This document shows positions 6,306-61,393 of a stretch of 64,000 nucleotides of DNA, in pieces. The DNA is from Siphonodentalium dalli. Taxonomy: Eukaryota > Mollusca > Scaphopoda > Gadilida > Siphonodentaliidae. The stretch spans positions 160,197,043-160,261,042 of the forward strand of contig CP136069.1 of NCBI GenBank assembly GCA_032622095.1. The letters are read 5' to 3'. The translations under genes were made by a program, and so were the position numbers. Positions within the stretch are counted from its first letter, which is position 1; every line of letters starts with the position of its first letter. The notes beneath the pieces were generated by a model, which saw only the letters and a program-made list of their open reading frames with translations, was not told the origin of the DNA and ran no database searches.

Positions 6306-6678
6306 CTGGGTCCATATTAGGGAAAATAAGATAGTTCAAGTATTTATCAACCTATTTCCATACCGGGAAAAATTCAAAAGCGAATATTATAATAGAAAGC
6401 TTCTAATAAGCAGTGTTCACGATAATTTTGATTCCATTAACTCTTTGGTGGGGTAGAATGACATTTATGGCACACTTATGGCAGGTGTAACGATATTTAT
6501 GTCATTTTTATGATAGCATCATATTTTCATGCACATAACATTACGAAATCAGACCACTGAATGAAAAACATCAGTAAACATGTGACATATTTTTACAGAT
6601 ATATTCACCCATGGCGCCATGATGTATATGGGTTAATTCATGCATTATATTGACACATATTTACATAACCCGTCTGTG

Positions 6679-7455
6679 TTAAGCCCCGGTTCCATATTCC
6701 CGATTTTCTGTCCCGAATTAGTATATTCGGCACCAATTCGGGACCAGACCAAATCGGCAGCATTCGAGATAATTCTGGACGAGTTTTATTCCAAAAGCCG
6801 CCGAACTGATGACAAAATTTAATCGTCCCGAACATTGCCGAGTATTCCAGAATGCTTCCAAATTTCTTCCCGCATGATAAAGAATTATCCCGAACTGATA
6901 CCGAAATTTCGTGCGAGTGTCTGTCGAATTGCCCAGATTACTACCGACTTACACCGAGTTGTTGCCGAATACCCCGAATCAATGCCGAACTGGTACCGAA
7001 TTGATGCCGAATAAATACCGAATTGGTATTCAATTGCTGCCGAACGTCCCGAATCGATGCCAAATTTTGTAGATACACCGGATCTTAGTATAAAATCAGC
7101 CACACATGGCGAATTCGGGAATAACTTACCGAATACTGCTGACTACTCCAGAATATCCACCCGAATACTGCCGACTACTCCCGAATAGGTGCCGAATTTC
7201 TCCCGATGATTGACAAATCAGGAGCGATTCGGCTTGGTTCCCGATAGTTTTGAACATTTCAAAACTGTCGGGAGCGAGTCCAGAATCGTCCCGAATCGAC
7301 CCCGACAGCACCGATATCCCCGATGATGTTCTGGGGTATAAATTCACTGTCCCGACTCGTCCCGAACTTACTCCACGATTTTTGCAAAATGATGATTCGG
7401 GAGTCATTCGGGAACATTCGGGGTGGAAAATCGGGGATATGGAAGCGGGGCTTTA
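6679..7455. mobile_element. PIF/Harbinger-like element with TTA duplication
   Basis: Inverted ends AGCCCCGGTTCCATATTCCC and (inverted) AGCCCCGCTTCCATATCCCC have few mismatches. TTA flanks both sides (6679-6681, 7453-7455). The interior is packed with ccgaat/attcgg words on both strands. Open frames on both strands here are by-products of that repeat. Confidence 0.75.
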
Positions 7456-14600: not shown

Positions 14601-17600
14601 AAACTTTTTTAATTTCTTACCAGCTTTTCTGCTCTCTGTGCCAAAGAGAAATCAGCATTCTCTTATTCTTGTCTTCAGGGAGAAGTTCACTGAAGAAAAA
14701 ATATTCATGTATAAGTTCTTTGTATGAGAAATGGTGCTATGTGCCAACTAAAGAAAAGAACGGGTGATCAATGAAGGATTGTTTTGAATTTTTAATGGAA
14801 TGGATGTAGCTTTTGTTAATCAGATTGACAAACTTTAAACTTTGATTGGCAGTTTTTAACATGAAGTTAATAGTTTGAAGAAAAATATGTGACCTCCAAT
14901 TGGGAATTCAATCAAGTTTGGGTGGGCTCAATAATGAGAAATGATAATTGTCATAGTTGAATTTGTTAATTAGTCACTAGTAAGTCACAAGAAATTAAAA
15001 ATAATTGGATTTATAATGTGATGATAGGTCTACTCAATAATAATCACATCAATACCTGATAAATCTTTACTCTTGATGGATATACAATTAAATCATGGTA
15101 ACTTAATCCAAAACTGAGATAAAATTGTGATTTAGAAATAATCTAGTTAAATTAATGGGATTAAGGGAAAGGGTAAATCACTATTGAAGCAGACAAGCCA
15201 GAAAAGGTGTTATATCCATCACCACATGAGGCTCTACACAGTAATTAGTCATGGTAATCTCAATAATCTTTAATTAATTGCCATATCTGGAAACCATAGA
15301 TCACTGGGGTCTTGTTAATCTCTTAATTCAGGTGAAATTAACAAGATTTTAGTTTTGTAGGTGAAATATTGGTGTAGAGATTAATAATGAAATAAAGTAA
15401 GAATTTATTTTTTTAAAGAATTCTTTGGAAAATTAAGCTTGTCACCATTATTGAGAAGTGATCTATTAAGCCTTACATATTACACAAGTGTTACATAATG
15501 GAGCATATCCAAAACTATGTATGATTAAAATTAATAAAGTAAAAAGCCAAATAATCTTAATTACTGGTGTGAATTGGAGGTAATAAAATCCAAAATGCCC
15601 AAGATGATATCATCTTGAATTACATCATGACTGCTAAATTCTTAAAACTTGACCAGTAAAAGGCCCAGTATTACCCTGGTATTGAATTATTACCCTGGTA
15701 TTGAATTATTACCCTGGTATTGAATTATTACCCTGGTATTGAATTACATAAAGATTATGATCACTCAAAGGCAGTTTTAAGTTTCACAATTATTGCCTGA
15801 ATTTTCTGACCAAATATTATATATCCAATAAAGCCATATAATGTGCAATAAGAGTTATTTATTGTTAGAGTTTATTACATGCTGGGCAGCTTGTAGTATT
15901 GAAGTGCCAATGACACATTTAAGCCAGGGCACAGGCCAGCCACATGCCACATTATGGCATAGATGTGTGAAATTGCACAAATCAAAGGCAATTTGGATGA
16001 TTTGAGTCATAAAAATTAGCACATCTCGGCTTTGATGTGGAGTTTTCATGACATTTTTACCAAAACAATAAGAAGAATAATGTCTTGAAGTTGGCTTAAA
16101 CAATATTATAATTTGATTTAGTTTATTCTGAAATATTTGTATTATAAAATTATTTGCTTTATAAAATTTGTGTATTATTAGCCACCAGCAACATTTTAGA
16201 TTGTTTGGGCTTTCTGCTTCATGGAAGCGTATAATGATAGCATTGAAAGAGTCATTGATAAGAGCGTTCCTAATTATTATCAGATCTAACAAACATTAGG
16301 ATATTATCATGCTCATTGACCAGTTTAGGTCACAGAAAATTAGGTAAATATTGGGCTGCCATATGTTTGTAGCCAAGAAATGTGTTCAGGTTGTATAGCA
16401 ATAGATTTCGGTGGTAATATAGAAAGGGATTGAATTTATGTTAATTGTACTCACAAGGAGAACTTGTCGTCAAAGTAGGGGTTGTTGGAATTCTCGATGA
16501 TGTCTGTCTTGTACTTTGTGCGTTCACCATCATCGGGAACCAGGCATATCTGTAAAAAGCAACCAAGTTAATCATATAATTCATGAACATTTTTATGAAT
16601 ATGCAATCCACTGTAATAGTTAGTTATCTTATAAATGAACTGTGGCTGCTTCATGGGTTTAGCAATTATAATGGAAATTGGCTTTCAAAAAAAAGAATTC
16701 CCCACGATTTGTTTTTTCAAGATTTAGCTCTTCTAATATATTAAATCCTTTCTCTCCCATCTCCCAGTAATAATTTACTTTGATAGAAACAGGAAACCTC
16801 AAAATAAACTTTGTCATGAATATTATGCTAACATCAGACACTTTTTTAGTTTTAGTGCTTTTGGAAACAAATATATAGCAATGTGGGTTGATGGAACATT
16901 AGTTATGGAAAATTTAATATTTAATTTTGTTATGTACCTTGGCAAAGGAGTCGCATCTGTCTGTCCATTTGGATGTGAGGTGTCGTGCATGAACGATGTT
17001 GACTGTCATGATGCCATAGTTGACGTAGATACTCAGCTTCAACTGACCTGAAAAATAAATCATAAATGTCAATAAAATCATGGAATGTGTATTGTCTTGA
17101 GTCAAGTTAATAAATAAAAGCCTGTCTTAAATAAAATTATACATAACTAATGAAATTAATGTAGAAGCTGATACATATGTCACATCAATGTGTTGTGACA
17201 TATCTTTGATAATGTAATCTTTCATACAAAATTATTATTGGAATATTGTGGGGGAGGGGAATAGAGATGTTATCATATTTGGAACATTAGCATATTTGAA
17301 ATATGTAAATGATAATTTCTATTAAATCTGACTTGACGTTTCAACATAGCACAGAAGCATGATTCCATACAAAAAAATTAAAATTTAAAAATTAAATTTT
17401 TTTTTGTAAAGGAACCTCAGTTGTCTAATCAAGAAATATTATCATCATGTTTAGACACCAACTGCATAAGGCTACATGCAACTGGTATATAATACAGTAC
17501 CTGTAGTGGACATCTTTTTGCCCAATATCACTCGAGTAATAAACAAAATATTTCACAAGTTTAATATTTTTTTCAGGAAAGCATATAAGGTTACCTCGCT

Positions 17601-20600
17601 TGTGGCTCTTGTCACTAAATAACCGAAAGGAATCCAGCTTCATATTTATAGAGAATGTCAGAAACACAACATCTAACGACACAGAGACTGAGAAGAGTTC
17701 AGCAAAATATAACCATACAATACTAATGAAGGAAGACACAGGTATACACACAATTAATGTTGGCTGATGAATGGCTTCAAGGGCCCCTCAAAAAACCCTT
17801 ATACCAAACTCAGGCATCAGATACTCTAATTTCATTGGCTGTTGCACAATTGTGTTTGTACAAGACTAAAGCTTGGGGTAGAAGTTGTGACATGGTAGTA
17901 GTATTTTGGTGCAAGGTGTGAAAAGGAATAATGGGTTAAGCTACCTGGGTGCCTAATGTGTTGTTACAGTCATGTAGGGTCACACCTCAGGTGGTATAGT
18001 TGTGCTAACATGTGGTAGCCCTGAAACCTCAGTGGCTGGACCCGGATTAAGGGACTTAATCCCATTTTGACATCACCTATCTGTGGTAATCCGAGTTCGA
18101 CCAATCAGAATGAGTTAATTTGGTGACAGGGCATCTTGGAAGACCTGCAGTAAGGGTTTAGTGTTTTGATGAAAATTATAGAAGATTTATGCAACTGATT
18201 TTTGGGTTCCAGAATGTCTGGGTTCAGGATTAGTCGTCCCTCATAGTGGCTTTGTTAATGAAGGGATAATCTTGGGGAAAACCTTTCAGAATATTATTCA
18301 CTAAACTGGAAACCATATTCATATATGCAGATTAGAGTGTGAATATTATTTTTATTTAATTAATTATCCAGCATATACAGTTAAGCCTAGTCTGAATCTC
18401 GATCAAATATTGAAAGTTATTAAAAAGTCTTAATTGTGTAATATCTTATACTCTGTGAGACTGGTAAATTGGTTGTCTGGCTATAATTATGTCTGATAAT
18501 TTTACCAATTCAAAGACTAACATTTCGGGTTTGTTTCAATATTTAAAAACTTTAAATATATTTCAAAATCTCCTTAAAACTTCTAACCTTGCCCTCTGGT
18601 ATTATTCACCAGTGGAAATTGAACCACATATCCTCTCCCCAATAAAATGCCTATCTTTAGTAAAACAGATAAGCTTGAATAAGATAAAAATTAGCAATGT
18701 TTTATTTTGTCTTAAAAGTATGTCTCTTTTTAAAACAAAAACCCAAAATAGCCATAATATGTGACATAATAAAATAAACTATGGCCCTTTTACATCACAC
18801 CATGCTCATAATCATGCCCTACTGAAATCTATATTAAATAGTGTTGCAAATTTTATCAGAATAAAGTAATGTAGCATTTTTGGTGAACATATTCTTAAAA
18901 TAAGTTTTATGTCATGAAATCATTATATATAACTGGAGGTGAATGTTGCCTCATTTTTGTGAGAGAAATAAATATTGTTTGCATTTATAAATTTTTATTT
19001 CTTCATGATGGAAAAGAGCAAGTTTGCAAAGGATGAACCTTGAAACAACACAGGTCAAATCAGTTATGAAAACAACATTGAGAGTGTGATTACTGACAGT
19101 ACTCAAGGCATAGGGTCCAAGACCAACCCAAGCTAGAACATGGGACAGATCCCCATGGGCTTGGTGAAAAGGTGCTGGCTTGTGACATTGATTATTAGGA
19201 CTACTCCGGCTCCGTCTGACTCGGATGAACCTAATGATTATTATGGCTCATGCCTCGGCTTGGAGAAGATGTGACATGCTGGTTCTCCTAACTATAGGGA
19301 TCCCACCACTGGCTTGGGGTATTTGGAATGATAGGGTGGCTTGTGACAGTGATGAGGAGTATAGTACTCAGTATAATGTCTAGACAGATGCTGATGTGGT
19401 AGTGTATGGCAATGTTAGCATATATCTGATAGGGAGGCAAAGTTGCTTAACCCTTTACCCAACAAACCGGCCAAAACCGGCCAAATAAAGCTTCAACAGC
19501 CTAAAATATCTTCGGTCTGTCTCAATAGAACCATACAAATATGGATATCATTGGAACCGGCTCCTTGACCACATTGTGATAGTTACAGTTATGCCCTGTG
19601 CCAATGCATTCTCTTATATATGCGAGTCGACCATAGGTCGCCTCGCATATATAAGAGAATGCATTGGCCTAAAAAAAAAATCTTTTTTTAACACTTTTTA
19701 CCATTTTTTCTTACATTCTTTAACAATTTTATAATTTTTAATGTGTTAAGCCAATGCATTCTCTTATATATGCGAGGCGACCTATGGTCGACTCGCATAT
19801 ATAAGAGAATCCATTGGCACAGGGCCGTTCTGTTGGGTAAAGGGTTAAGCTTTTTTAAATATGCCTTGTCTGATATGGCAACATAAAACGGCCATCTGTA
19901 CAATTTCTATACCAAATATAATTAGATTGGACCTGTGAGAGCTCATTAATAGGAGGTTTTGATGACCAGTTATTGACTTTTCAAAAGATGAAGTTTTGGT
20001 TTTAATTTTTTTTAAACTTTTGTTTCTTATAAAGAGTATCAATGCTTCCATCGCTTAAAAGCGGTAGATAATAAAGAGCGTTTTCAATCATGAGCATTTG
20101 TACCCGCTTTAAACTCATCACATATGAATGATTTAGAGGATTTCCGTAATGCCTGTGTGATATAAATTATAGCGATTGCACATATTTTTAGTTTTCTTAA
20201 CATTAACATAATGTTGACTAATTTAATGTCCTGTTGAACCATGGTCCTTTAATTGTATAATTGAGTAGCAGCACAACCCATTAACTTCAGATGAAGAATT
20301 AAAGAATGATGATCCATCTATATTATTCTGTTTATTACTGTCAAAACTTGTGTTAAATGTTCATATATGTTATTATGATTGGAATAAAATATGAATTACA
20401 CTAACTTTAGATGAAGTATGCAGATCATATTAATAAATGTTGAATTTAAAGTGGATTTGAACATGACATAATTTTAATATGCTTCAGCAATATTTGAGAT
20501 AAATATCCAATATGTTTTATTTAAATTTTGTACATGCACCTTGATACTTCAATTCTCCTCATTTCCTCTCTTACTTTTATTCTTTCAACTTGGTGATTTC

Positions 20601-23600
20601 TTTTCTTTTAAATTCATTCTCATTTTCAGTTGTTACCAGGAGAGGTGAAATTTTTATTTAGGTCTGAAAACACCTTTATCATATTTTTTATCCTATAACA
20701 GCAGGCAATAGATTGACTTTCTTGGTAATTCAACTGTTCCGCCTAAACATTTAGTATGGTTAGCAAGCTTTTGTCCAAAATTATATCCTTTTGATAAAGA
20801 AACACATGAAAGTAAAGAGAATTTCACAGGTGAGAAATACTGTGACTTTTTTACATTGAAACCTGTAGCAAACAACCCTATCGGACACATGCCATTTGTT
20901 ATTTGGTGTATCAATGTATGGTGAATACCGTTTGATTGTGAAGGCATGAGTTCACAGTTGGAAGGCGACAATAATGGGGCGAGAAATTATGTCCCTGGCA
21001 GACAACAGGTGGTATATACATGAGATGTGCTTGCTTGGATCTTCATGTGATGGGACCCACTACATCAAAGTCGTTCTAGGGACAGCTAAGGGATGTCAAG
21101 GTGTTAAATTCAGCCCCGAAATTCAATGATAATTTTGAGTCTTCTGTGTATCCCAGATAATGCAAGGGGGAAGAGATAGTCAGGGATGCTGTTAGAAGTC
21201 TGTTCAGGGGTGCCAGCTTTCATTAACAAGGGCACCCAAATCTTTTAAAATTAGACAAAATCCCTTCTGGTCATATTGTGAGTTGAATCTTGCCAAAAGC
21301 AGGAAATATAAATTCTTTGCCTAAAACCCAGATAATTTTACACTAGATATCTGTTGAAATTTAAATCAACAGAGCATTATTAATATTATTCAGCCTGAAG
21401 TTTCAAACTTGGGCTCATATATGTACTGTGTATAGTTCATGTTTGATTTGATCCTAAAACTGCATCAGATTTCTGAGGGACCATCTTAAATAATAATTTC
21501 AACAAAAATCCCAAAATATAGACAAAATATAAAAAAAAAAATACATTAAAAAAAATTAAATAAACTTTACATCAGAAATTAACAAAATACATATATGATT
21601 CTTGAAAATGTCATATTAATTCAATTTACTCAAACTTAACCAGCTAATTTACTTAGAATACTCAATACAGGAGCTGAAAATCAGCCATTTTGATCCCTTA
21701 CTTCAGACATGGCTAGACAGCCATGCTGAGTCCCCTGATCAGTCTGATAGTAGATTAATGTTCATCAGCTAACCTCCACATACCTAATTTACTCCCCATA
21801 ATTCAATCGTGGACCCTAATTTATGTCATAAAACTCACTTGGCAGACTCTGTCTCCTGTTCATTTAGAATTGGATTCAGTAAAAATAAATTAACAAGGGT
21901 GACTAATTAGTGAAGGAAACAATAGTTAAGACTAAATTTATTTCACCTTCCCAATGAGTCTACCCAGCCATTTTAGTGATATAAGTTAATGAATAGAAAT
22001 ATTAAATTTAATATCCAGAATGTAGATTGTAATATTACTCATGCGGCAAGGCATTTTAAGACAATTAGTTAAATTTATAAATATCAGCAAGAATTAAAAT
22101 TAAGAATAAGCCACAGAGGAAGCATTATCAAGGCTTATCTCAAATTTCAGACACAATTTAAACTACGATTGATAATGGTGTTCTTTTAAAAACTTTTTGA
22201 AATATACATAATATAATCAGGCTATCTTGTATTCATGTTCTATCCAATAATGAGCCATCTCATGTTGAATGTCTGGCATTAATTTTCTGAAACAACCATT
22301 ACAAAAAACAGATTTATTTTAAATCTTTTAATTTTGAAATTGGATTTACAAAAAAAAATCCAGTTTAATTCCAAATTCATGAATAGAGAACTGTGTAAGA
22401 TGATTTCTTTCTGTTCGTTCATATCTCTGACAATCTCGTTTCGACTATGAAAAGATAATTTGGCCTGATGTTCAGTTGTCTGCAGTAGCAGCTAACCCTG
22501 GGGGCGACAGATGTTTGTAGAATTTTTGACACCCTTTATCAAGCTTTTTGATCCAAAACAAACTCCACATTAAAACAGGGAATAATTTGTACAGGGGAAC
22601 AAATTATGCTGATTTTTGAACAGTGTCGATACATGAGAATCAATTGTTGGTTTTATGAAGAAAGACATAGGCAGCACTTCACATGTCCTGATGAGATTTA
22701 CCGAGTGGGGGTGAACAATGAGACAATGGTCCCCGAAACCTCTTAGCAATGTAAATCCATATACTGTCGAACAAACTCATAGAGAGTGAAACACTAGGCT
22801 GTAAGGTATTGTCTCTTCTTGACACAGTTAAAGAATCATACTCAGTTATATCATAAACCTGCTTCACATTGGTGACACTAGTGGACAATATCACAATTAT
22901 TACTTATAAGTTTGTGTACAGTAATGCCCTAAATAATCGACTCCTTAACCACAGCAGAATTATTGGTAACTTTTCAGGATTTAGTCAGAAATATGGCTTG
23001 TTGCATTCATCGGAAAGCTCTCACTGAAAGCTTTCCGATGAATGGCAACAAGCCATATTTCCGACTAAATCCTGAAAAATTACCCATAATTCTGATGTGG
23101 TTAAGGAGTCGATTATTTAGGGCATTAATGTACTTGGTTTATTGTAATATTTTGGGTGATTGTGATTTTTCAGGTTTATTGTGACATTCTGTTGGTGTTA
23201 TTTAGCCTTTAAGTGGCATATATTAGGGGGTAACATTTATTCTATGAGGAGAGGACTTTTAAAAAGCCATTTAGAGGAAAGAATTTTTATAAAAGTCATA
23301 GGCTTATGGATTGTTATCCCATCTTCATTTGAAATATTTGTTTTTTTTTCTATGTATAAGTTGTCAATGTGATACCTCTTTCTCAATCTCTCTCTATCTA
23401 TATGTGTATTGTGTTTGTGTTAAATATATGTTTTATTTCCTGAAATAAATATTGGTTACACCATATATTAGGGCCTCCCATATTTAGCTATTGCTCTAAG
23501 TTGCATCATGTTAACAATACATTTTCTGATGATGCTATGCATTGTCATTTTGCATGTATTTTGTGGAAGAAAGCCAATAATTATTTAAAATTTTATTTAA

Positions 23601-26600
23601 AACAGGTTTCTGTTGTAACTGGAGTTCTTGATCACCCCTTTAAACACATCTATAGTGCATCATATAAATGGTTTTCAATTAGAGCAAAATCAATCATCTG
23701 CATATGGTAAATGGAATAAAGAATGAACAAGCACCCATTCAACTATAAAGACAACTATCGACCTCTCATAGTAAAACATTATTTAAATGCGTAAAAATAG
23801 AATTAAGATAGTCAGACAAGAACGAGACCCCAGGTATTTTCAACCCTCCAATAAATAATTTAGTATTGTAGCATTAAGCGACAGTTGATGTACTCAAAAT
23901 GCCACATATGCCACCTGATATTTAAAAATATTTTGCTGCCGGTAAAAAAAGTTCTTAAAATATGTCTAATTGAAACATGAATAATTGAGAAGTTTTTAAC
24001 TGAAACCATTCCATGTGTTAGTGAGCCTAGATAGACCTATTTAATGTTTTGTATGCATGAACTTTTTTCAATTTCATGAATAAAAAAATTTCTTATATAA
24101 CCAGATGTAACCAACAATTATGAAATTGACAACTATTAAAATTCAATGCACAGCATTTAACAATGAGACACCAAGTTAATAAAAGAGGCGTCACCACAGG
24201 TTGCTCAATTAAAAAAGCATGATTTGTGCTGGATCAATTTGTATGAATATCTCAAATCTTGCTAACTGTGGATGTTCCACCATTGAAATTGTTTCTCAGT
24301 GTTATATTTTTAATTGCTTCTAAAGTGAAAAATCGAACATTTGAAAATAAGTATCATATTTTAGGAAACATTTAACAATTTCAAAAGAAAACTTCCTAGA
24401 ATTGGCAAATTTGCAAAGCGTTCTGTTTGATAGGAAAATGAAAACTGTCAACAGTTACTATGCCTAATGTTATGATACATTATATTATGTTATGCTATGT
24501 TATATATTTGGAGAAGTGCAATTTTAGGTCTGTGCCACCCACCCCACCCCTATGATGGAATGTACTTCTCAGAATGTTCTCAAGATAATTTGAATGTCAA
24601 TTTAAGTGATATAGTAAAGCGAGTAGTTTGGTACGAAGAGCCCGGGATGGTCAAAAAGATCTAATGATCTTCTTCACCCTAAATTTGGGAAGCAACTGGG
24701 CCTAAAATTGGGGCTACACTGTGCACTCCCCCAGTCAAAATATAACTAAGATGACCCTGTCTCTCTCAATGTTCTCAAGATAATCTGAAAGTCAATTTAG
24801 ATTAATAGTCTGAGGCAACTGGTCCTGCACTGTGCCCTCCCCCAGTCAAGATATGACTAAGATGACCCTGTCTCTCTCAACGTTCTCAAGATAATTTGAA
24901 AGTCAATTTAAATTAATAGTCCAACGTAACTGGGCCTAAATACAGGGGCTGCACTGTGCTCTCCCCCAATTCAAGATGTGCCTAAGATGACCCTGTCTCT
25001 CTCAATGTTCTCAAGATAATTTGAAAGTCAATATAAATTAATATTCCTAACCTACTGGGATAGACCACAGCTCACTCTATAGATAACAGAGACAGCTCAA
25101 TTTCTGGAATGTATCTGCCAAGAAAACACACCATCTTCTATTTAGCACAACACACTGTTAAATTTAAAGAACATGACAAGTACAACTGCTGCATTTTTGA
25201 CAGATATAATATTTTTGAGAATATTGGAGATGACAAACGGAAATCGTCAGCTCACCTTTCCCATGGAGATGATCTACTCGTACCCACAGGGAGCTGGTGT
25301 AGTCTGGGGAGTGACAATAAGCATCCAGCGGAGACCAAGATCTTAGACCTGCCACTCTATCATCATAATCTATTGATGACCTGCTCATACTGTGTATGAC
25401 GATGCTCTCCATCAAAGGCCGGCGATAATGAGAAGGGACCTGTCATTCAAAAACATCACTGGCATTTCACGTGGGGAGCACTTTTGAAAAATTATAATAT
25501 CAAGTTGAGTTTTTGTACCATTTATACTTTGGGTACCGTAATTATTTAAAAAAAAAAACTTGGTGGTCTTTTCTAGCTAAACTTGTTTAGTCACAATAAA
25601 TGCTCTTCCTTACTGAGGATTCATGGTTTTGCTGGTAGATACTTTAACCCTTCCATGACTGGAGCTTCCTGAAATTTTGCGAAAACCCTGTGCCAATGCA
25701 TTCTCTTAAGGAGTCTCACATATATAAGAAAATACATTGGCCTAACAATGTTTACCTAGTAAGCCAGGTATTCTCATATATATGCGAGGCTCCCTATATG
25801 AGACTCGCATATATATAAGAGAATGCACTGGCACAGGATCTTTAATGCTGCACCATCACAGCTCACGTCAAGAAACGGATAATAACCGAGGCGATATTTA
25901 AAGTTTAATGTTTAACCCACATGGAGCCTCACACAGATGAAAGCATGCACTATGGAGTGTCATCTGCTGCGGGTCTATATGGGGCTCTCTATGGGTCATG
26001 AAGGATCATGTGAAATTGACTCCACATATTTTACATGTATTCTCTACTGAATGATGTTATAAACCAAAGTAAATCATTTATCAAAAACACTGTCTGCTGA
26101 CTCATGGTAAATCTAACAAGTTGCATATTTTATTTAAAACAAATTGAGGTGACTTTATCCTTCAAAGTCTCCCAATCAAAAAAGATCAATCTCCCAAAGA
26201 CTGGCAAACTGGAAATGTTTAGTGTTGTAGAGTACAATGTTGTAGATAGCTACAATTGAATAATGTTTTTGAATAATTTAAATTCAAATGTTCATGTGAA
26301 CAGGAAAAGGTATATAGACATGGGCCAGTAATACTAGATAGGTAATATTTATGTGAACACATTTCTTCATCATTTTACTCTGTAAATTTACCTTCACTTT
26401 CACAGGTTCTTGGATTTCTCTGCCAGAGCTTCCTGATAGATGATGCCATGATGAGTAAGAAATACTAAATGATGGTGGACTATTCATGCAGTTCTACAGA
26501 CTCAGTTACAAGAATGTATTTCACTGGTATATTACATGCAGTAAAATGCAAATGGCATGGTGGGTATATATTACATGCAGTAAAATACATATAACATATC

Positions 26601-29600
26601 ATCTAAGCCAAACAGAAATGAGCAGTGATTATGTCACATCCAATAATAATAAAACTGTAAAAACCCAGATCAGATTTTTTACTATTGACCATAACTGTCC
26701 CATGTGTGGAATTTCCTGCTTTAGGTATCATTATTAGGGTATTATGCACCCCGGGTGGCTACTTATGGCCTTATTATTGGGGATGCTAACCTATTAGATT
26801 TCAATCTACCGTGTAATCAAGGTAACATAATCCCTCCTATCTACCCCTGTGTACTCGGAGTCTGGACTAAGTTTCCGTTTCAGATAGGATTACTTTATGA
26901 TGGCCTCTGGTTACTAACAGTTTACTAGCAGGAAGTCGAGGATTATTATGCGTGTAATCAACTGTTTTATAATCCAACTTCAAATAACATTATATTAGCC
27001 TTAAGATATGTCTAGTTTATGTTTGTCTGAGTTTTACTGATCAACTTTAAAAAAAATAAAAAATTAGGAAGAATATATAAGCCCTAAATGTGGATTCACT
27101 TATTCTTTATTTTCCTATACCAATATAATTTATTAATATATAGTTTATTTTATTTGAATATGTAATGGAAGGGCACAGTATAAGGTATGTGTGCATTGCT
27201 TTATGTGCAAGAACAAATCTCATTTCTTATCAAAATGGCCATGTTTTGATCAGACTGATACCAGCTAAATTATATAAAATACCACACATTTATCTTCATT
27301 TTTGAAATTACTCATGTTAATTGAAAGGTGTAAAGCATTTAAAATCCAAATGACTTTCTATATAGAGGTATTCCTGGTTCAAATCATTTAAAATCCAATT
27401 GACTTTCTTTTTAGATGTATTCATGGCTCAAATCATTTAAAATCCAATTGACTTTCTATATAGATGTATTCATGGCTCAAATCATTTAAAATCCAATTGA
27501 CTTTCTATATAGATGTATTCATGGCTCAAATCATTTAAAATCCAATTGACTTTCTATGCAGATGTATTCAGGGTGCCAAGCATTTCAAATCCATTAGACT
27601 TTCAAAATAGCTGTATTCAGTGTTCATTTCATTTAAAATTGACTTTCTACATAGATGAATTCACAGTTCCAAGCATTAAACATCCAAATAACTTTCTATA
27701 TAGATGTATTCAGGGTTCAAAGCTAATTTAAAAAAAATCTAGTTTACTTTATATGCTGCTCATGAATAAAATAACAGATTTGTTGTGAGAAGTGCAACTT
27801 GAAAGATGCTTATATTTGAAATTGTATTTTATATGCTTATTTAATATTGTTTATGTTTAAGAGGGACACTACAACATATTTTGTTAATTTTTCAATGACA
27901 TATTTATATTTTTTTGTATTCTTTATTGGTCTATAAATATATTGGTCTGTATTTTATATTGGTCTATATATATTTGGTTTTCAAATTTTTTTCCAACATT
28001 TTATGTTGTTGTTGTAACTGAAGGTCTGGAACCCTGAGAACGTCATTAATAATATTATATTTCTTGAAAAAATATAATCTGCAGCTAACATTGAGAGCGA
28101 GTGCTGTTCTGCTATGTCTATATGATGTACCATCAATTATTTGTTTGATATACGATCTAACACATCACTAGTGAGTTAAGCAAATATACTTTAGCATAAT
28201 AGGGAATAATGCCCTGGTATTTAATGAACAGTAGTGATAATAGCAGGATATTTGACAGTTAATTCCCCTTTAATCTCATTCAGGTGGCCCCAGGTGCCCA
28301 GGGATATTTATTCAAGGATACTGAATCTATTCCCCTGGGGAGGGGATTTGAAGAGGAGGAAAGTATCATGATCTAAATCACAGGCCATCTTGGGACAGAG
28401 ACAGATCACCCTCCATGAGGTATTGATGAACTGTTTTTGGTAACTTGAGCCTAATATTTAGGGATGATACTGCCAGCTTTGTATGGTTAACAGATTGGTT
28501 TTCACTGTAGGGGACCTTAATTCTCTAAACTTCCTCACCTTTAAAAATGCTTAGATGGGTTCAATTACAGAACTCCATTACTTTTAATGACTATCTGTAA
28601 AAATATTTATCTATTGTTTTTGGTATCATTGAAGTATGGTTTAAAATAAATATTTTTTATTAGAATAATCTGGAAATACAAATTTCCTATCTGAATTCAC
28701 ATGATTTTTGTATTTATTTTTTAATTTTGTTTGTTTGAATTTGTTTCAATTGGAAAGGAATGATTTCCCAGCATGACGTGATAGAAATCACTTTAATCAG
28801 TGTCAAAGTGTCTCACCTCTCACATGGTACTGTCTCTCTTCCCATAGATAAATTCCCTAATGTAGAAGTGACAGATCATAGAAGGGGAGGGGGATTCTCT
28901 ATCTTAACCCTTTCTATACTGAATGGATTCTTCCATTCACTTATAAAAGTATACATTGGAATGCTCTATTATTCATTTGGAGGGATGTTCAGGGCAGATG
29001 GATTTCTATTAACCCTTTACCCAACAAAACGGCCAAAAACGCCCATATAAAGCTTCAACAGCCTAAAATATCTTCGGTCTGTCTCAATAACACCATACAA
29101 ATATGGATATCATTGGAACCGGTTCATTGACCACATTGTGATGGTTACAGTTATGCCCTGTGCCAATGCATTCTCTTATATATGCGAGTCGACCATAGGT
29201 CGCCTTGCATATATAAGAGAATGCATTGGCCTAAAACCTTTAACACTTTTTACCATTTTTTCTTACATTCTTTAACAATTTTATAATTTTTTCTTACATT
29301 TTTTAACAATTTAAAAAAAAAATTCTACATTCTTTGACAATTTTATCATTTTTAATATGTGTTAAGCCAATTCATTCTCTTATATATGCGAGGCGACCTA
29401 TGGTCGACTCGCATATATAAGAGAATGCATTGGCATAGGGCCGTTCTGTTGGGTAAAGGGTTAATTGATGGGAATTATTCAGATAATAACTTCAACAAAT
29501 TTTGTTGAACTTTTTATCTGAATTTTTCTTAAGGGAATTAGAGTATTTAGTATAGAAAGGGTTAATTTTCACAGCTTCATGCATTGCATGCAAGAAGGGG

Positions 29601-32600
29601 CAAGAAGAACAGGGGGCGGGGGCAGACAGGGCTCGGGTCCTCTATCCCTTGGCCAGTGCATATAATATTTTCACAGGGAAGAGGCCTGTTCCCAAGATGA
29701 TCCTCTTGCCCACCATTGCCCCATATCATTCTGTAATTCTGCCACCATGACAGTGAAAATTGAAATTCTGAAGGCTATGATTCTGGCCTTTCATAAATCT
29801 GCCACCATGATAGTGAAGATTGTCATTCTGGAAGCTATGGTCCTTGCCTTTTAGTAATTCTACCACCATGACAGTGAAGATTGTCATTCTGGAAGCTATG
29901 GTCCTTGCCTTTTAGTAATTCTACCACCATGACAGTGAAGATTGTCATTCTGGAGTCTATGATCCTTGCCTTTCAGTAATTCTACCACCATGACAGTGAA
30001 GATTGCCATTCTGAAGGCTATGATCCTTGCATTTCAGTAATTATGGTGCCATTTCCCTCATTGTCTTTAGATCATATCTTTTAGTGTGACAATATTTGGG
30101 GTGGAAAAGGTTTGGGTACTAATTCTAATAATCTAGGGCTCTTATATTTATACTTGTTCAAAGGTACCTAAAAGCCCACAATTAATCAACTAGAACTTAT
30201 ATCTAGAACACAGTAAAATTTATGAAGAATGATGATAGTGGGCTGATAAATTCAGATTAGAAGATAGATGCACCACAATAGGAAATCATTGTCCGACTCA
30301 GTACTACAGATATAATAGTGTTTGTCTCCAAGTCAGACAATTGAGTGAAAATAAAGCGTGTTTAATGGTGCAAAACCTTTTGTAAAGCAACCGAACCATT
30401 CAGAAAATTACATGTTGAATCATCCATGGCACATGCGTGATAATGTAGGGTTCGATCAAGTGAGGGGCTGTCGTTCAGAATCCTAATTAGATCATTAGCC
30501 AAATTAGGCTGAAAAAGTAGCTAGATTTATGATATGATATGACAATGAGTTCCAAAAAGAAGTGTCTAAAATAGAAAAGATGAGCTGCTGTCATCGCCGG
30601 ATGTGATATTGATATCAATTTTAGTTCAGTTGGAAACGAGAAAGGTGTGAACATTCAATTGAGACACCATAGTATTTCCTAGGCTTGATATGGAAGCGGT
30701 GATATTTGTGGCTTGATCATGGTAATTAGGGTGACCACACTACCCTGGACTCATTCATAATGTACGAAGCATTGTGTTTTTGGCATGTGCCGCGGAGACA
30801 GAATAGTTATTAGACTTGATTTGTAGGGACTGAGTCTTGTCACAAGGTCCTGATTTGTTAAAGATATAAAACTGTGCCATCGTTGATTTATGACTAGGTT
30901 CATCATGGCTGTTATAGTTTGTGGAGCAGTAAAATTGATTGCAGTGATTTTTGAAGGCTGTAAAATGTTTTGACTCTAAATCATGCATCACATTTTATTG
31001 GGGGTTGTGATTTAAAAGCTGAGATTTGTGACGGAAATAAACTTGATTATTCTAATTATTGACGGTGGACAATTTTGTGTCTTTTGACTGATAATTATGG
31101 CAGTCATCCTTGTTTTGCATAATTCTTTTTAATTTAACCCTTTCATGATGACTTTGTTGTCAGCCACCTGGCTTTCTTCAGCAATGATATAATATAAATG
31201 TATAATGTTTTAAGTCAATGGGAGAAAGTGGCATGCAAATGGAAGGGGTGCTGTTGGAAGTTGGAGGTATATCCCCCTGTCCCCAATAAAAAATCCCTAC
31301 CTATGTGTCTGCCTTAACCCTTTACCCAACAAACCGGCCAAAACCGGCCAAATAAAGCTTCAACAGCCTAAAATATCTTGGGTCTGTCTCAATAAAACCA
31401 TACAAATATGGATATCATTGGAACCGGCTCATTGACCACATTGTGATGGTTATAGTTATGCCCTGTGCCAATGCATTCTCTTATATATGCGAGTCGACCA
31501 CAGGTCGCCTCGCATATATAAGAGAATGCATTGGCCTAAAAAACAACTTTTGTTAAGCCAATGCATTCTCTTATATATGCGAGGCGACCTATGGTCGACT
31601 CGCATATATAAGAGAATGCATTGGCACAGGGCCGTTCTGTTGGGTAAAGGGTTAAAGTGATCATTGATATGACACCTTGTGCACAACAGATTTGTGCATA
31701 AAAATCAATTATGATTCTGTTGTATTCAAAATTGGTTGTGACGAGATAGATTTTCCCTGATATTGTTGAGACACAGTCTCACAGAGGAAGCCACCTATTA
31801 AACCAGACAGGTCTATTTTCCTTGGTATTACAGGCATTTATCAATATCCAGGCAGATCAAACTCCTAAAGGAATTGCTCAGTCACACCTAAGATACTCCA
31901 GTAATTGGTTATGGCAGATTAAATTTTAAAATTGATAAAATTTTAAATTAGAGTTGAGGTTATCTGGGTACAGCAGACAGTCCACTTGCGGTAATGCTCC
32001 AGCCACATGCAGTTTGGTCATTATAATTATCCGCCTCAATGCTCGCATCATTCCCGAAGGTGTGCACAAGGAATGCTCCAATGCATATCGCCATACAAGG
32101 CAATCGAGTGAAACTAGATATTACCTGCCCATAATAAACCAGGGTGAATAAGACAAATTGCTATGTGCGACCAGACTATTTATGTGACAGTTTGGAAAGT
32201 TAGACAAATAATTGAAATCAATCAGGCAGATCAATTTTCATTAATAATAGAAATTATGTTTCAAAATGTGCAATTTAACATGTCTACATGAGTCTCGGAG
32301 AATATTGATGAATGGTCAATTTGACTTGCAATTTACAGGAAATTTCGAAATAAAAACAGCTCACTGATTCACTTTTGAATTTGAATTTAGGCAAAAATAC
32401 TTACTTTGTTTCATAATTTAAAATTTTAATTCTTCAAAAGTTGGAAGGATTATTGTATACATATTGCTCGCCTTTACAAAATTATTGGGCAAGAGATTGA
32501 ATGCCACCGCAAAGAGAGCACCTGATGTCAAATATGATTTTTAGGATACATGTGTATTGCTAGATTTATTGCCACTAAATTGTCTCAAGGGATATAATGT

Positions 32601-33651
32601 ACTAATTTTAAGCCAAAGAAGTGAACTTGAGAGATGATGTACTGAACATGGATGATGACTATGTCACCATGACGAACAAGGGTGCATGGGAAAACAGTAT
32701 GTGTTTGGTGGAGCAGGGTTATATGGAAAACTGCACAGGTGCTTGAATCTATGGTTATAAAACACCCAAATAATTATGTGGTTAAATTTTCAAAAATGAT
32801 AATTCATTTTTTATAAGTTCCTGAATGTTCTTTTAACTTCTTTACATGTTTTTAATTCTGATTTTTCAACTTTTGGTTGATTCTATATCATTCTGTTTTG
32901 ACAACTGATATAAAAGTGGCTGTCAATTTTCATTGGGGAAAAATGTCTATCTGCTCTCTACCAGTTAGTATTTCTGGTTTGTTATCTATTTAACTACAGT
33001 ATTAATCCTTTCATGATGGGAGCTGTGCTGGTGCAGCATTAAAGATCCTGTGCCAGTGCATTATCTTATATACGCGAGTGTCTCATAGGAAGCCTCACAA
33101 ATATAAGAGAATGGCTTACAAGGTCAAGGTAAATGTATTCTCCCTATGAGAGACTCGCATATATAAGAGAATGCATTGGCATAGGGTTTTATCAAAATTT
33201 CGGGAAGCGCCAGTCACAGAAGGGCCCTGTGCCAATGCATTCTCTTATATATGTGAGTCGACCATAGGTCGCCTCGCATATATAAGAGAATGCATTGGCC
33301 TAACACATTAAAAATTATAAAATTGTTAAAGAATGTAAGAAAAAATGGTAAAAAGTGTTAAAAAAAAGATTTTTTTTAGGCCAATGCATTCTCTTATATA
33401 TGCGAGGCGACCTATGGTCGACTCGCATATATAAGAGAATGCATTGGCACAGGGCATAACTGTAACTATCACAATGTGGTCAAGGAGCCGGTTCCAATGA
33501 TATCCATATTTGTATGGTTCTATTGAGACAGACCGAAGATATTTTAGGCTGTTGAAGCTTTATTTGGCCGGTTTTGGCCGGTTTGTTGGGTAAAGGGTTA
33601 ATCAGTGAATTACTCACCTTTGTCAGTTTTCGAAGAGAACATTTTCTTCAT
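8520..33651 (-). CDS. PsGEF: C2-PDZ-DH-PH Rho guanine-nucleotide exchange factor (PsGEF-like), whole gene
   Basis: This is a multi-exon gene read right to left. Shared coding exons: 16938-17047, 16455-16549, 14621-14689, 13824-14223, 12835-12916, 12351-12456, 11815-11995, 11258-11422, 10710-10844, 10262-10429, 9646-9984, 9052-9259, 8520-8674. All introns are GT-AG and the phases fit, giving one open frame to a TAG stop. In the 753-residue isoform, C2 is about 17-150, a Ser/Thr/Pro linker 151-241, PDZ 242-316 (GFGF loop), a basic linker to 364, DH about 365-560 and PH about 610-748. DH-PH proteins normally load GTP on Rho-family GTPases at membranes, while C2 and PDZ target or scaffold. The C2-PDZ pair, with GCMSFGVK and GWYYLL motifs, resembles that of vertebrate RGS3. 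From memory, C2+PDZ+DH+PH matches the protostome-specific PsGEF, so the symbol is provisional. The gene model is strong; the exchange activity is uncertain because the DH core is divergent. Confidence 0.85.
9052..9259 (-). CDS. Exon: PH domain
   Basis: This 208-nt exon (phase 0 to phase 1) encodes VFELGLENRHLVFSSDIFRW, then NTHWRPIHLMLFTDILLQVE, then GYMTVIEEPLHLHDICGI. The H-L-M-L-F-T-D-I-L-L stretch is the strand found in DH-associated PH domains (usually Y-L-F-L-F-N-D-L-L-L). The acceptor is tttacag and the donor gtaaga. Confidence 0.93.
9646..9984 (-). CDS. Exon: DH end and DH-PH linker
   Basis: This 339-nt exon is phase 0 at both ends and encodes 113 residues. It begins HLKEIFSLLTDISDVT and DYPRLTSVVQGIQ, the position of the long DH helix, then a Ser-rich linker (ASSSGSSVSSRQRHQ), then IQDKLIFAPNVH, which starts the PH fold. 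The canonical Q-R-x-x-R/K-Y-P-L-L-L signature is not present. The acceptor is tctttag and the donor gtaagt. Confidence 0.92.
10262..10429 (-). CDS. Exon: DH domain middle
   Basis: This 168-nt exon is phase 0 at both ends. It encodes MHVISQAYSDYAHGLPESSK, continuing to LEHGKDFRRFLSNPPLLN and FIRHPIE. It covers conserved region 2 (Y..Y....) and the start of region 3, where most DH domains read L-I-K-P-x-Q-R. The acceptor is tttttag and the donor gtatgt. Confidence 0.9.
10710..10844 (-). CDS. Exon: DH domain, with an acidic Ser/Asp insert
   Basis: This 135-nt exon is phase 0 at both ends. It encodes LVMISEYLVRQIQDN, then an acidic run (SDSDSDSSFTDS), then PHLTSSIGLIYSSK. The acidic Ser/Asp run looks like an insert between DH helices and a casein-kinase-2-type target, which is inference. 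The acceptor is ctttcag and the donor gtaaat. Confidence 0.9.
11258..11422 (-). CDS. Exon: start of DH (RhoGEF) domain
   Basis: This 165-nt exon is phase 0 at both ends. It encodes the first DH helix (conserved region 1): AIQKLMQQELDFIDTMHAGI followed by ERYSRPLRHF and HEILFQNIEK. The glutamate in QQEL sits where DH domains carry the invariant Glu that contacts the GTPase switch I. The acceptor is tgttacag and the donor gtagat. Confidence 0.9.
11815..11995 (-). CDS. Exon: PDZ end and basic linker
   Basis: This 181-nt exon (phase 2 to phase 0) finishes the PDZ domain (YCGSILTLEVRRYKDHGP) and continues into a Ser/Lys/Arg-rich linker ending SLFKQKKR. The basic end lies just before the DH domain and may help membrane contact or act as a localisation signal, which is inference. 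The acceptor is cttttctag and the donor gtatgt. Confidence 0.9.
12351..12456 (-). CDS. Exon: second half of PDZ domain
   Basis: This 106-nt exon (phase 1 to phase 2) encodes GSPAEESGLHPDDGLLSVNG and then QNISRSTAVSVAKLIK. G-S-P-A-x-x-x-G-L, D-x-L-L-x-V-N-G and the helix-B residues are standard PDZ features. The acceptor is ttttacag and the donor gtaagt. Confidence 0.92.
12835..12916 (-). CDS. Exon: first half of PDZ domain
   Basis: This 82-nt exon (phase 0 to phase 1) encodes ITIRRGRNGFGFSLTSACPV and on to NTIEK. GFGF is the carboxylate-binding loop of class PDZ folds, and the preceding basic residue is typical. The acceptor is tttgcag and the donor gtaagg. Confidence 0.92.
13041..13630. mobile_element. 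TTAA-flanked element with AGGG...CCCT ends, inside an intron
   Basis: Inverted termini read TTAAAGGGATACTGTACGCC on the left and GGCGTACAGTACCCCTTTAA on the right, about 590 bp apart, in the intron between the linker exon and the PDZ exon. No coding capacity is visible. A related half-end (aaaggggtactgtacac) occurs at 44707. Confidence 0.75.
13824..14223 (-). CDS. Exon: end of C2 domain and Ser/Thr/Pro linker
   Basis: This 400-nt exon (phase 2 to phase 0) has a tattttag acceptor and a gtaagt donor. It first encodes the C2 end (LTEFLGCMSFGVKHL, GWYYLLSEDMGRKKHLQIS). It then encodes about 90 residues of low-complexity linker rich in Ser, Thr, Pro, Met and His, with repeated TPSHSM-like units and many S/T-P sites. 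The linker looks disordered and is a likely target for proline-directed kinases, which is inference. Confidence 0.92.
14621..14689 (-). CDS. Small exon completing the C2 domain
   Basis: This 69-nt exon has a ttcttcag acceptor and a gtaaga donor and is phase 2 at both ends. It encodes ELLPEDKNKRMLISLWHREQ and flanking residues, which restore the strand and W-x-R/D loop that C2 domains have between DKFSF and the GCMSFG motif. Without it the C2 fold is short by about 23 residues. The loop that would carry calcium-binding aspartates reads WHREQKS, so this C2 is probably calcium-independent. Being a multiple of three with equal phases, it could be skipped without a frameshift. Confidence 0.85.
15671..15746. 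repeat. Four-copy 19-bp tandem repeat in an intron
   Basis: Four consecutive, essentially identical units of ttaccctggtattgaatta lie in the 1.8-kb intron between the exons at 16455 and 14689. The identity suggests recent expansion and probable length polymorphism. Confidence 0.9.
16455..16549 (-). CDS. Exon: middle of C2 domain
   Basis: This 95-nt exon runs from phase 0 to phase 2, with a tttttacag acceptor and a gtgagt donor. It encodes ICLVPDDGERTKYKTDIIEN and then NSNNPYFDDKFSF, the K-T...NP.F.E.F signature of the C2 beta-sandwich. Confidence 0.9.
16938..17047 (-). CDS. Exon: start of C2 domain
   Basis: This 110-nt exon enters in phase 1 and leaves in phase 0, with a ttttcag acceptor and a gtacat donor. 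It encodes the first C2 strands (GQLKLSIYVNYGIMTVNIVH) and ends at CDSFAK, the position of the DPYVK motif in other C2 domains. It is the common acceptor for all three alternative starts. Confidence 0.9.
17595..17643 (-). CDS. Alternative first coding exon 1c of the C2-PDZ-DH-PH gene
   Basis: This 49-nt exon starts at ATG 17643 (MKLDSFRLFSDKSHKR plus one base) and ends at a gtaacc donor in phase 1. That is the third independent exon fitting the acceptor at 17047, only 547 bases downstream. The reading frame stays open upstream without another ATG back to about 17751. A non-ATG or upstream-spliced extension cannot be excluded from sequence alone. The resulting isoform is 753 residues. Confidence 0.65.
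19447..19848. mobile_element. Family A double-hairpin TTAA element (piggyBac-like MITE), copy 1
   Basis: The ends are TTAACCCTTTACCCAACA and TGTTGGGTAAAGGGTTAA. TTAA target sites plus CCC...GGG termini are the piggyBac superfamily pattern. Inside are a long left arm (cggccaaaaccggccaaata...), a perfect hairpin with stem gccaatgcattctcttatat, an AT-rich spacer, and a second hairpin that is the reverse complement of the first. It has no coding capacity. Confidence 0.85.
22917..23132. mobile_element. Family C palindromic element (TA...CAGTAATG), copy 1
   Basis: This is a near-perfect palindrome of about 216 bp. It starts TACAGTAATGCCCTAAATAA and ends with the inverse, TTTAGGGCATTAATGTA. TA duplications and CAGT ends resemble Tc1/mariner-type MITEs. 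The centre is a short unpaired loop near gctctcactgaaagc. Confidence 0.8.
24576..25055. repeat. Degenerate tandem array, units of about 110-195 bp
   Basis: The phrase gttctcaagataatttgaa recurs at 24576, 24771, 24882 and 25006. Each later copy is preceded by agatgaccctgtctctctca and by a ctgtgcnctcccccagtcaa block. No coding is seen. Confidence 0.8.
25256..25439 (-). CDS. Second exon of the long N-terminal isoform (C2-PDZ-DH-PH gene)
   Basis: This 184-nt exon has a tgacag acceptor and a gtgagc donor. It encodes 61 residues (VPSHYRRPLMES... to ...WVRVDHLHGK) plus one base. Its entry phase 0 matches exon 1b, and its exit phase 1 matches the C2 exon at 17047, giving ...HLHGKG-QLKLSI. The peptide has several Ser/Arg motifs (SMSRSS, GLRSWS) that could be phosphorylation or 14-3-3 sites, which is inference. 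An ATG at 25412 could also start translation within this exon. The long isoform totals 830 residues. Confidence 0.7.
25644..25882. mobile_element. Family B element, copy 1 (degraded)
   Basis: It begins TTAACCCTTCCATGACTGGA and ends with a decayed inverse (gtcaagaaacggataa). Inside are two hairpins with the same agagaatgca...ttggc stem as family A, but with loops of the tctcccatagg type. It lies between exon 25256-25439 and exon 26392-26487. Confidence 0.7.
26392..26487 (-). CDS. Alternative first coding exon 1b of the C2-PDZ-DH-PH gene
   Basis: This 96-nt exon encodes 32 residues from ATG 26487 (MNSPPSFSISYSSWHHLSGS... to ...PVKVK). It ends in phase 0 at a gtaaat donor. An in-frame TAG two codons before the ATG supports the start. 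Its phase matches the exon at 25256-25439, which begins in phase 0. The peptide is Ser-rich with no recognisable domain, so it probably forms a disordered N-terminal extension. Confidence 0.65.
27334..27731. repeat. Tandem array, about eight units of 49 bp
   Basis: Units read tcatttaaaatccaattgac, then tttctatatagatgtattca, then tggctcaaa. Central units are nearly identical and outer ones diverged. The apparent open frame across it is a by-product of the repeat period. Confidence 0.9.
27732..28905. other. No gene seen
   Basis: This is AT-rich intronic sequence (of the longest isoform). I see no exon, RNA gene or clear repeat in it. Confidence 0.5.
28906..29564. mobile_element. TTAA element D interrupted by a family A insertion
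   Basis: Outer ends are TTAACCCTTTCTATACTGAA and the inverse AGTATAGAAAGGGTTAA. The A element at 29009-29464 sits inside at its own TTAA, so one TTAA-type MITE has inserted into another. Confidence 0.75.
29009..29464. mobile_element. Family A element, copy 2 (nested)
   Basis: It has the same ends and two hairpins as copy 1. The AT-rich spacer between the hairpins is enlarged by duplication of a ttcttacattctttaacaat unit. Confidence 0.85.
29737..30045. repeat. Tandem array, five units of about 61 bp
   Basis: Units read ttctaccaccatgacagtga, then agattgtcattctggaagct, then atggtccttgccttttagta. Two central units are almost identical. It is intronic in the longest isoform. Confidence 0.9.
30046..31313. 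other. No gene seen
   Basis: This is intronic, AT-rich sequence without a recognisable exon or repeat family. Confidence 0.5.
31314..31655. mobile_element. Family A element, copy 3 (short spacer)
   Basis: The ends are intact (TTAACCCTTTACCCAAC / GTTGGGTAAAGGGTTAA). The spacer between hairpins is reduced to about 20 bases (aaaaaacaacttttgttaag). The stems are essentially perfect. Confidence 0.85.
31656..33001. other. No gene seen
   Basis: This is AT-rich sequence. A short open frame at 31954-32151 has no supporting signal. Confidence 0.5.
33002..33601. mobile_element. Fused family B / family A element next to exon 1a
   Basis: The left part (33002 to about 33223) is family B (TTAATCCTTTCATGATGGGA..., two hairpins). 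The right part (to 33601) is family A in reverse orientation, ending AAAGGGTTAA. The junction (cagaagggccctgtgcc) lacks both B's terminal TTAA and A's first 24 or so bases. Its right end lies 16 bases downstream of the exon 1a donor. Confidence 0.75.
33618..33651 (-). CDS. Alternative first coding exon 1a of the C2-PDZ-DH-PH gene
   Basis: This 34-nt exon starts at ATG 33651 and reads MKKMFSSKTDK plus one base, then a perfect gtgagt donor. It ends in phase 1, exactly what the shared acceptor at 17047 needs, so the join reads ...TDKG-QLKLSI. An in-frame TGA lies a short way upstream of the ATG. The intron that follows would be about 16.6 kb. A TTAA transposon ends only 16 bases into that intron. 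The exon is short, so the call rests on donor quality, phase and N-terminal similarity in style (short, basic, Ser/Lys-rich) to exon 1c. Confidence 0.6.
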
Positions 33652-40691: not shown

Positions 40692-41504
40692 CTGGTTAGA
40701 ATTTGTAAATACTGAACTGAATAAACTGGGCATGTCATATACATGGAGAAACCAAGCAGTTAGTAGCATAAAAATGTTTGCCAATGCCATAAAAACCAGA
40801 ACTATGGACATCTATATATCAGACTGGCGAGCGTCTATGGAAATATAAAATAAATACGCATTTTATAGATGCATAAAGCCAAACTTCGGCAGACCACGAT
40901 ACCTATCTATCGATGATAACAATATCGTCCTGCCACTACTGAGATTCAGAACCAGAAACCACCGACTTCCGGTGGAAACTGGATCTTGGACAAACACCCC
41001 ATACTCAGAACGAAGATGCAATCTTTGTATGGAGGAACTCGGCGATGAATACCACCTTGTTATGAACTGCCCTCGGTTAACTGCCCTCAGAACATAATAT
41101 CTGAAAGCCTACTATCGCAACCGACCAAACACAATTAAATTGCATGACCTCTTCGATACAAATAACAGAAAGATCATAGTAAATCTATCAATATATCTAA
41201 AAAAGGCCCAAACACTAATGATCCACTCCTGAGGCTCAATGAAAAAAAAATGCCCACCCCCATACAACATATGTACAGGGAATCGCCCCACATACATTTT
41301 ATACCCCAATAATTATAAGATAGCATTATCACACACATATTTATATGAAAGTCCACATACACATGTATGGGTACACCCCCCTGGATGATATTCATATTTA
41401 TATTGATAAATACTTTCTTCTGTGTATTCCCCATATACTCATAAATGTCATATTAGACGATGAGTTTACAATAATAAATTGAATTGAATTGAATATCAGT
41501 GATA
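40692..41504 (+). pseudogene. LINE 3' end fragment with zinc-finger tail (broken)
   Basis: The plus strand encodes a decayed C-terminus of a non-LTR reverse-transcriptase polyprotein. A segment with LGMSYTWRNQAV precedes a stop at about 40847. Later, PLLRFRTRNHRLPVE leads into RCNLCMEELGDEYHLVMNCP, a C-x2-C...H-x4-C finger typical of the end of such ORFs. At least two in-frame stops break it. The tail ends in aattgaattgaata repeats, like a LINE 3' microsatellite. It splits a host repeat, so it is an insertion. Confidence 0.75.
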
Positions 41505-41642
41505 TATATATCAGTAAATCAAAACTCTAAGTCTGTTTATGATAACTGATACATTTGGATCAAGTTCATGCTTAGCAGGGTTACTCAAATCTCTACATAT
41601 CACTGCTCAAAGACTCATAATATACCAAAATATCCATAGCCT

Positions 41643-42041
41643 TAACCCTTTACCCAACAAACCGGCCAAAACCGGCCAAATAAAGCTTCAACAGCCTAAA
41701 ATATCTTCGGTCTGTCTCAATAGAACCATACACATATGGATATCATTGGAACCGGCTCCTTGACCACATTGTGATAGTTACAGTTATACCCTGTGCCAAT
41801 ACATTCTCTTATATATGCGAGTCGACCATAGGTCGCCTCGCATATATAAGAGAATGCATTGGCCTAAAAAAATTCTTTTTTTAACACTTTTTACCATTTT
41901 TTCTTACATTCTTTAACAATTTTATAATTTTTAATGTGTTAAGCCAATGCATTCTCTTATATATGCGAGGCGACCTATGGTCGACTCGCATATATAAGAG
42001 AATGCATTGGCACAGGGCCCTTCTGTTGGGTAAAGGGTTAA
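41643..42041. mobile_element. Family A element, copy 4
   Basis: Both TTAA ends are intact. The left arm, two mirror hairpins and the AT spacer are as in copy 1, to which it is nearly identical. Confidence 0.85.
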
Positions 42042-60839: not shown

Positions 60840-61393
60840 TATATAGATTAAATTTATGCTGAGCGTCGATTGTCTCGGTCAACTTTCTTCAATTTCCGGT
60901 GTACGCTGTGGACACTGTTGCTGTGTACAAAGTTCACAATGTTTGAACTGACCTTAATTGATTGATTGTGGTCTTTATCCGTCGCCATTACGCACGTGGC
61001 AGTCATATTGATACCGAGATTCAGTTTGACATAAAACAAAGGACAAGGGTGCTCTCATATTAATGTGCAAAGAAACTACGTTTTAATAATTCGTGGTACG
61101 GTCCATCAGATGATCAGTCAGTGAGTCACAGTCACACTCAAAAAACGGCAAAAGCAAAAGGAAGACTTTCTGGGTCCTTGGATATCATATGTGCAACAGT
61201 GAAATTATATGGACATAGTTCATCATTATCTGTATCTCAGAAACTGACTTGCTGCATATTCAACCTATTGTCAATGACACTTGATTATCTACAATTCACA
61301 TCCAATCTTTAAAATTTTGCTTGCCAGGGGGCACCAGTCTAATTTCCTGTTCTGTAGTGACAGTGTAATAACAATATTTTCTGAAATATAGAA
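60840..61393 (+). other. Upstream region of the CD36-family gene
   Basis: No coding seen. A tctgtag or gccag acceptor-like site 30-70 bases before the ATG hints at a 5' UTR intron. No convincing TATA box is visible. Confidence 0.3.

Follow-up and report, generated by a model that had tools for sequence, protein, structure and literature searches.

PsGEF, RGS3 and the locus under study

PsGEF, a Rac exchange factor described from Drosophila (CG14045) and found in insects and Lottia, has the architecture C2-PDZ-RhoGEF; its C2 and PDZ domains resemble those of RGS3, it has no RGS domain, the fly gene interacts genetically with Rac1, and the publication labels it 'protostome-specific' (PMC2684095). 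We analysed a stretch of 64,000 nucleotides from the scaphopod Siphonodentalium dalli (GCA_032622095.1, contig CP136069.1, positions 160,197,043 to 160,261,042; hereafter the window), which contains a gene of this architecture on the minus strand. We read the predicted gene as a putative PsGEF orthologue whose C2 domain is probably preceded by two alternative first coding exons, perhaps by further ones.

For PsGEF, the stretch compared between species (C2 to RhoGEF) starts at residue 14 in Pediculus, 18 in Lottia, 272 in Drosophila, 595 in Apis and 601 in Tribolium, and what sets the two described fly isoforms apart is alternative polyadenylation on the 3' side, not the start exon (PMC2684095). 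Human RGS3 is reported to be one of the genes with an alternative promoter that is regulated by methylation in liver cancer (PMC8803206). A literature search for C2PA-RGS3 found no papers.

A predicted PsGEF orthologue

Thirteen core exons (Table 1), spanning 17047 to 8520, were assembled from splice signals. The spliced core has a single open frame, all 12 introns begin with gt and end with ag, and the last exon includes the stop codon. The core codes for C2, PDZ and RhoGEF domains and a C-terminal tail. In an 830-residue form of the protein (see below), Pfam places the C2 domain at residues 106–213 (5.8e-14), the PDZ domain at 319–391 (1.1e-11) and the RhoGEF domain at 452–634 (1e-13), all above the curated cut-offs. 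The domains thus stand in the order C2, PDZ, RhoGEF, and the exchange factor with a C2 domain on its N-terminal side that a preliminary description of this DNA had named agrees with the Pfam domains, with the RGS3 match of the C2 domain and with the architecture of PsGEF.

When the query was started at the junction Gly, i.e. the codon restored where an upstream exon joins the acceptor at 17047, the top match of the C2 domain in the PDB was human RGS3 (3fbk, E 3.1e-33), the junction Gly (of GQLKLSI) pairing with the Gly of GQLRLSI in that structure. When the entire protein was used instead, the 3fbk match started at residue 90, 4 residues ahead of the junction Gly. Human RGS3 isoforms also part just ahead of GQLRLSI, which is a lead and not a test. 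The PDZ domain matches RGS3 structure 1whd (2.6e-11). The DH part has Tiam1 as its top hit in the PDB (2.3e-5) and also matches Vav (7.9e-4), both weakly and distantly; the likeness to these two proteins lies in the DH sequence, and their accessory domains differ from those found here.

An RGS domain gave no Pfam match in the 830-residue protein at E values up to 1; 3' of the stop codon it was looked for in two open reading frames (ORFs) only (15–317 and 6641–6937), and an exon farther downstream is possible. A poly(A)-signal hexamer lies at 7921, beyond the stop. In an alignment of the C2 domain (exons 17047 to 13824, minus strand) with PKC alpha, WHREQKSCLTE stands opposite WDWDR-TTRND, a segment holding positions which we take to be calcium ligands. 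These ligands seem to be partly lost, so that membrane binding that depends on calcium, an idea put forward in PMC2684095, may not apply to the protein studied here.

The predicted protein thus has in common with PsGEF the domain order, the RGS3-like C2 and PDZ domains and the lack of an RGS match. Vertebrate RGS3 (C2, PDZ, RGS) is alike in C2 and PDZ but carries an RGS domain, whereas the protein here has RhoGEF instead (PMC2684095). The intron counts, by arithmetic, are 3/2/3 here versus 2/2/1 as published for Lottia (PMC2684095), a comparison of counts with positions unaligned. On this sequence evidence we take the gene for a probable PsGEF orthologue, in which an RGS3-like C2-PDZ front is followed by RhoGEF (DH) and a tail, and its product would be expected to activate Rac near membranes.

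Candidate first coding exons

The preliminary description had three first-exon sets converging on the acceptor of the C2 exon: A, B1 spliced to B2, and C (Table 1). Their coordinates and phase hold: each set leaves one base, GT follows, and the Gly is restored at 17047. The protein lengths are likewise reproduced, 748 (A), 830 (B1+B2) and 753 (C) residues through the 13 core exons, the stop not counted. We found in addition a frame that had been missed, B', which uses the donor of B1 and joins 17047 directly, skipping B2.

In the reading that we put forward, and to which we give an even chance, the gene is a PsGEF orthologue in which at least A and B' are real alternative first coding exons. 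The phase-1 acceptor of the C2 exon, at a Gly common to RGS3, would not be tied to a single first coding exon; the starts most likely to be real are A (MKKMFSSKTDK) and B' (MASSIRKLWQRNPRTCESE, B2 skipped). Their products would be near-identical proteins of about 750 residues, differing solely in a leader of 11–19 residues ahead of the C2 domain. A and B' would each be transcribed from a promoter of their own, and the leader may adjust membrane or partner binding by the adjacent C2 domain. For leaders as short as those of A, B' and C there is precedent in the species comparison for PsGEF, where the Lottia stretch starts at 18 and the Pediculus stretch at 14. Exons C and B2 are uncertain.

Donors were scored with a weight matrix built from the 12 core donors, which score 4.0–9.4 when each is left out in turn (core acceptors, 3.0–15.3), and were ranked among the 2422 GTs on the gene's strand between 17.1 and 63.3 kb. 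The donors of A and of B1, which B' shares, are among the six best of these, whereas that of C falls below every core donor and that of B2 lies in between; the earlier statement that all the sets end in good GT donors therefore stands for A and B1 and fails for C. The acceptor of B2 (3.85) scores little above the weakest core acceptor.

Codon scores, in bits per codon, were trained on the core exons versus the introns of the same gene. They were compared with 4000 random open segments from the upstream region, both strands, the null fraction being the share scoring as high. Leaving out each of the 13 core exons in turn gives scores of 0.35–0.92 for them. B' has the top score of the start candidates tested, and B1 in its earlier frame lies within the noncoding null. 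For exons so short none of these scores is decisive. How weak the codon test is can be seen from a repeat-overlapping candidate (ATG 36001, donor 35887), which itself has a null fraction of 0.05. The open stretch ahead of exon C (17787–17644) was tried as coding sequence and rejected (codon score -0.78, null fraction 0.89).

Since the ATG at 26487 is in a weak context, and since the stronger ATG at 26449 opens a frame that hits a stop within B2 in a B1-B2 transcript, the simplest form of exon B is a single coding stretch of 58 nt without B2. If B2 is real, it is a separate exon, perhaps with its own start at ATG 25412 (52 codons). The exact model of the preliminary description, with three promoters, proteins of 748, 830 and 753 residues, and B1 read from ATG 26487 into B2, is in our view very unlikely. 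All of its frames are open and in phase, the codon score of B2 is coding-like, and A and C have a motif in common (see below), but B1 in that frame is not coding-like, its ATG is the weaker one and would be followed by an ATG whose frame stops in B2, the B2 acceptor is weak, and the donor of C is under every core donor.

The claim of at least three promoters is not supported either, given i) the weak donor of C, ii) the simpler form of exon B as a single exon in another frame, and iii) the possibility that A is an internal exon. An acceptor-like site (first base 33670, score 8.1) lies 19 nt upstream of the ATG of exon A, so that A could be fed from a more distant promoter. One could accordingly picture a single distant promoter with one or more noncoding first exons, A, B1 and the others being alternatively spliced second exons. 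The site ahead of A does fall within the core acceptor range, but A+T-rich DNA often has acceptor-like sites, and in the 200 nt ahead of B1 and of C the top sites reach lower scores (6.8 and 5.5, respectively); we regard such an arrangement as unlikely. The number of promoters, the 830-residue form and the idea that alternative starts target the protein to different sites are not established, the last being a guess. A family of hairpin-like repeats (TATATATGCGAG...CTCGCATATATA) occurs in the same region (Table 1), and an arm of one of them ends at 33604, 14 bases off the last base of exon A, 33618.

Similarity between peptides A and C

The peptides of exons A and C resemble each other (KMFSSKTDK and RLFSDKSHK, alignment score 24). 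For A, C ranks first among 287 other candidate peptides from both strands, the next scoring 20; for C, A ties second of 287. Among all 41328 candidate pairs, repeat copies included, 229 score at least as high. When random noncoding peptides, led by an ATG and matched in length, are paired, this score is reached in 31 of 3000 cases; with A held fixed it is reached in 7 of 3000, and with C held fixed in 3 of 3000. The likeness was spotted by eye before it was tested, i.e. post hoc; allowing for the six pairs that A, B', B2 and C can form, it would arise about 3 to 6 times in 100. The remaining five pairs score 9 to 18, and B' and B2 are without the motif. The Ser after the Phe is coded by TCT in A and by AGT in C, which argues that the likeness is not due to DNA copying alone. 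The shared motif is a modest signal, and the main argument for C despite its weak donor.

A wider reading would have one RGS3-like C2 acceptor serve three or four interchangeable start exons over 16 kb, each set with a separate promoter and supplying alternative membrane- or partner-binding leaders, A and C sharing [K/R]-[M/L]-F-S-x-K-[T/S]-x-K at the protein level with differing codons; this we consider doubtful.

Comparable candidates on the two strands

The preliminary description took the convergence of the exons on one phase as meaningful. A usable donor has to be in phase 1, so that the identical phase is a condition for selecting the exons and not independent evidence. Candidates led by an ATG and ending in phase 1 over the same 46 kb are moreover about as frequent on the opposite strand, and the convergence therefore carries no weight.

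Several of these comparisons weigh against two real starts. With donors scoring at least 5, the gene's strand has 32 candidates and the opposite strand 40; at scores of at least 2 there are 145 and 143, respectively. The scores of donors A and B1 are reached by 4 of the 2313 GTs on the opposite strand, where 85 score as high as donor B2 and 496 as high as donor C. The codon scores of A, B2 and C (0.18–0.30) are under those of all core exons and that of B' is at their lower edge, and two good candidates in 46 kb outside listed repeats are not far from chance. Pattern searches for relatives of the C2 domain gave 14 matches in genome contigs and 4 in viral contigs, none of which was confirmed.

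At higher thresholds the counts for the gene's strand and the opposite strand are 11 and 6 (donor at least 8), 3 and 0 when a strong start context is added, and 4 and 1 (donor at least 9.9); the one on the opposite strand sits outside the stretch surveyed for repeats. That survey covered 16900–45000 and repeats of at least 40 nt, 25 of 83 inverted pairs being listed. Two of the 4 candidates on the gene's strand (donors 37522 and 40343) overlap listed repeats; A and B' are clear of every repeat in the list. That A and B' are the ones left over is suggestive, not significant. Start candidates with donors 37522, 40343 and 35887 were set aside, each overlapping a listed repeat.

These counts bear on the idea that only one first coding exon is real, be it A, B' or another that is unlisted or outside the window, the others being chance ATG-to-GT stretches. 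We consider this possible, though not probable: phase-1 candidates are equally frequent on the opposite strand and the exons are too short for decisive codon scores, but the donors of A and B' rank among the very best and these exons lie outside listed repeats, and peptides A and C resemble each other.

Table 1. Exons of the PsGEF-like gene, candidate start exons and other features of the window (coordinates in the window; donor ranks among 2422 GTs; null fractions as defined in the text)
Feature	Coordinates	Strand	Phase	Donor score (rank)	Codon score (null fraction)	Remarks
Core exons 1–7	17047-16938, 16549-16455, 14689-14621, 14223-13824, 12916-12835, 12456-12351, 11995-11815	-				
Core exons 8–13	11422-11258, 10844-10710, 10429-10262, 9984-9646, 9259-9052, 8674-8520	-				
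Common acceptor	17047	-	1			First base of C2 exon; restores Gly of GQLKLSI
Exon A	33651-33618 (34 nt)	-	1	AAG|GTGAGT, 10.1 (6)	0.18 (0.15)	Candidate first coding exon, MKKMFSSKTDK
Exon B1	26487-26392 (96 nt)	-		10.2 (3)	-0.25 (0.36)	Earlier frame from ATG 26487; weak start context tgcATGA
Exon B'	26449-26392	-	1	10.2	0.35 (0.046)	Candidate first coding exon, MASSIRKLWQRNPRTCESE; start context atcATGG
Exon B2	25439-25256 (184 nt)	-		6.2 (79)	0.25 (0.044)	Candidate; acceptor 3.85
Exon C	17643-17595 (49 nt)	-	1	GAG|GTAACC, 2.1 (530)	0.30 (0.07)	Candidate first coding exon, MKLDSFRLFSDKSHKR; weak donor
Six more candidates	Donors 40199, 32405, 44880, 41296, 42243, 42150	-		at least 8		Outside codon scoring
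Hairpin-like repeats	19444-19831, 29008-29447, 31314-31638, 33213-33604, 41642-42026					
Retrotransposon fragment	40852-41094	+				zf-RVT
Tandem duplications	52495-53445	+				Two, adjacent
Retrotransposon fragment	58609-59172	+				RVT_1
CD36/LIMP2-family ORF	61388-62113	+				Exon-like

Neighbouring features

Upstream of the PsGEF-like gene lies a divergently oriented neighbour from the scavenger receptor family CD36/LIMP2, seen as an exon-like ORF (Pfam CD36, 2.4e-64; LIMP2, 6.7e-36). Two retrotransposon fragments were detected, one with a reverse transcriptase match (RVT_1, 1.4e-6) that at 28.6 bits falls short of the cut-off, 29.6, and one with a weak zf-RVT match (0.006), also under its cut-off. 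Of the two near-perfect tandem duplications, each with two copies, one has a unit of 187 bp (98% matches) and the other a unit of 287 bp (96% matches). Neither an Rfam scan at gathering thresholds nor a tRNA scan gave any match.

Implications

Animal genes often have alternative first exons, and the present case is therefore of relevance mainly to specialists in Rho exchange factors or in invertebrate gene annotation. If confirmed, the use of A and B' would show which N-terminal leaders precede the C2 domain of PsGEF, and would widen the known regulation of this gene from alternative 3' ends, as in the fly, to alternative starts.
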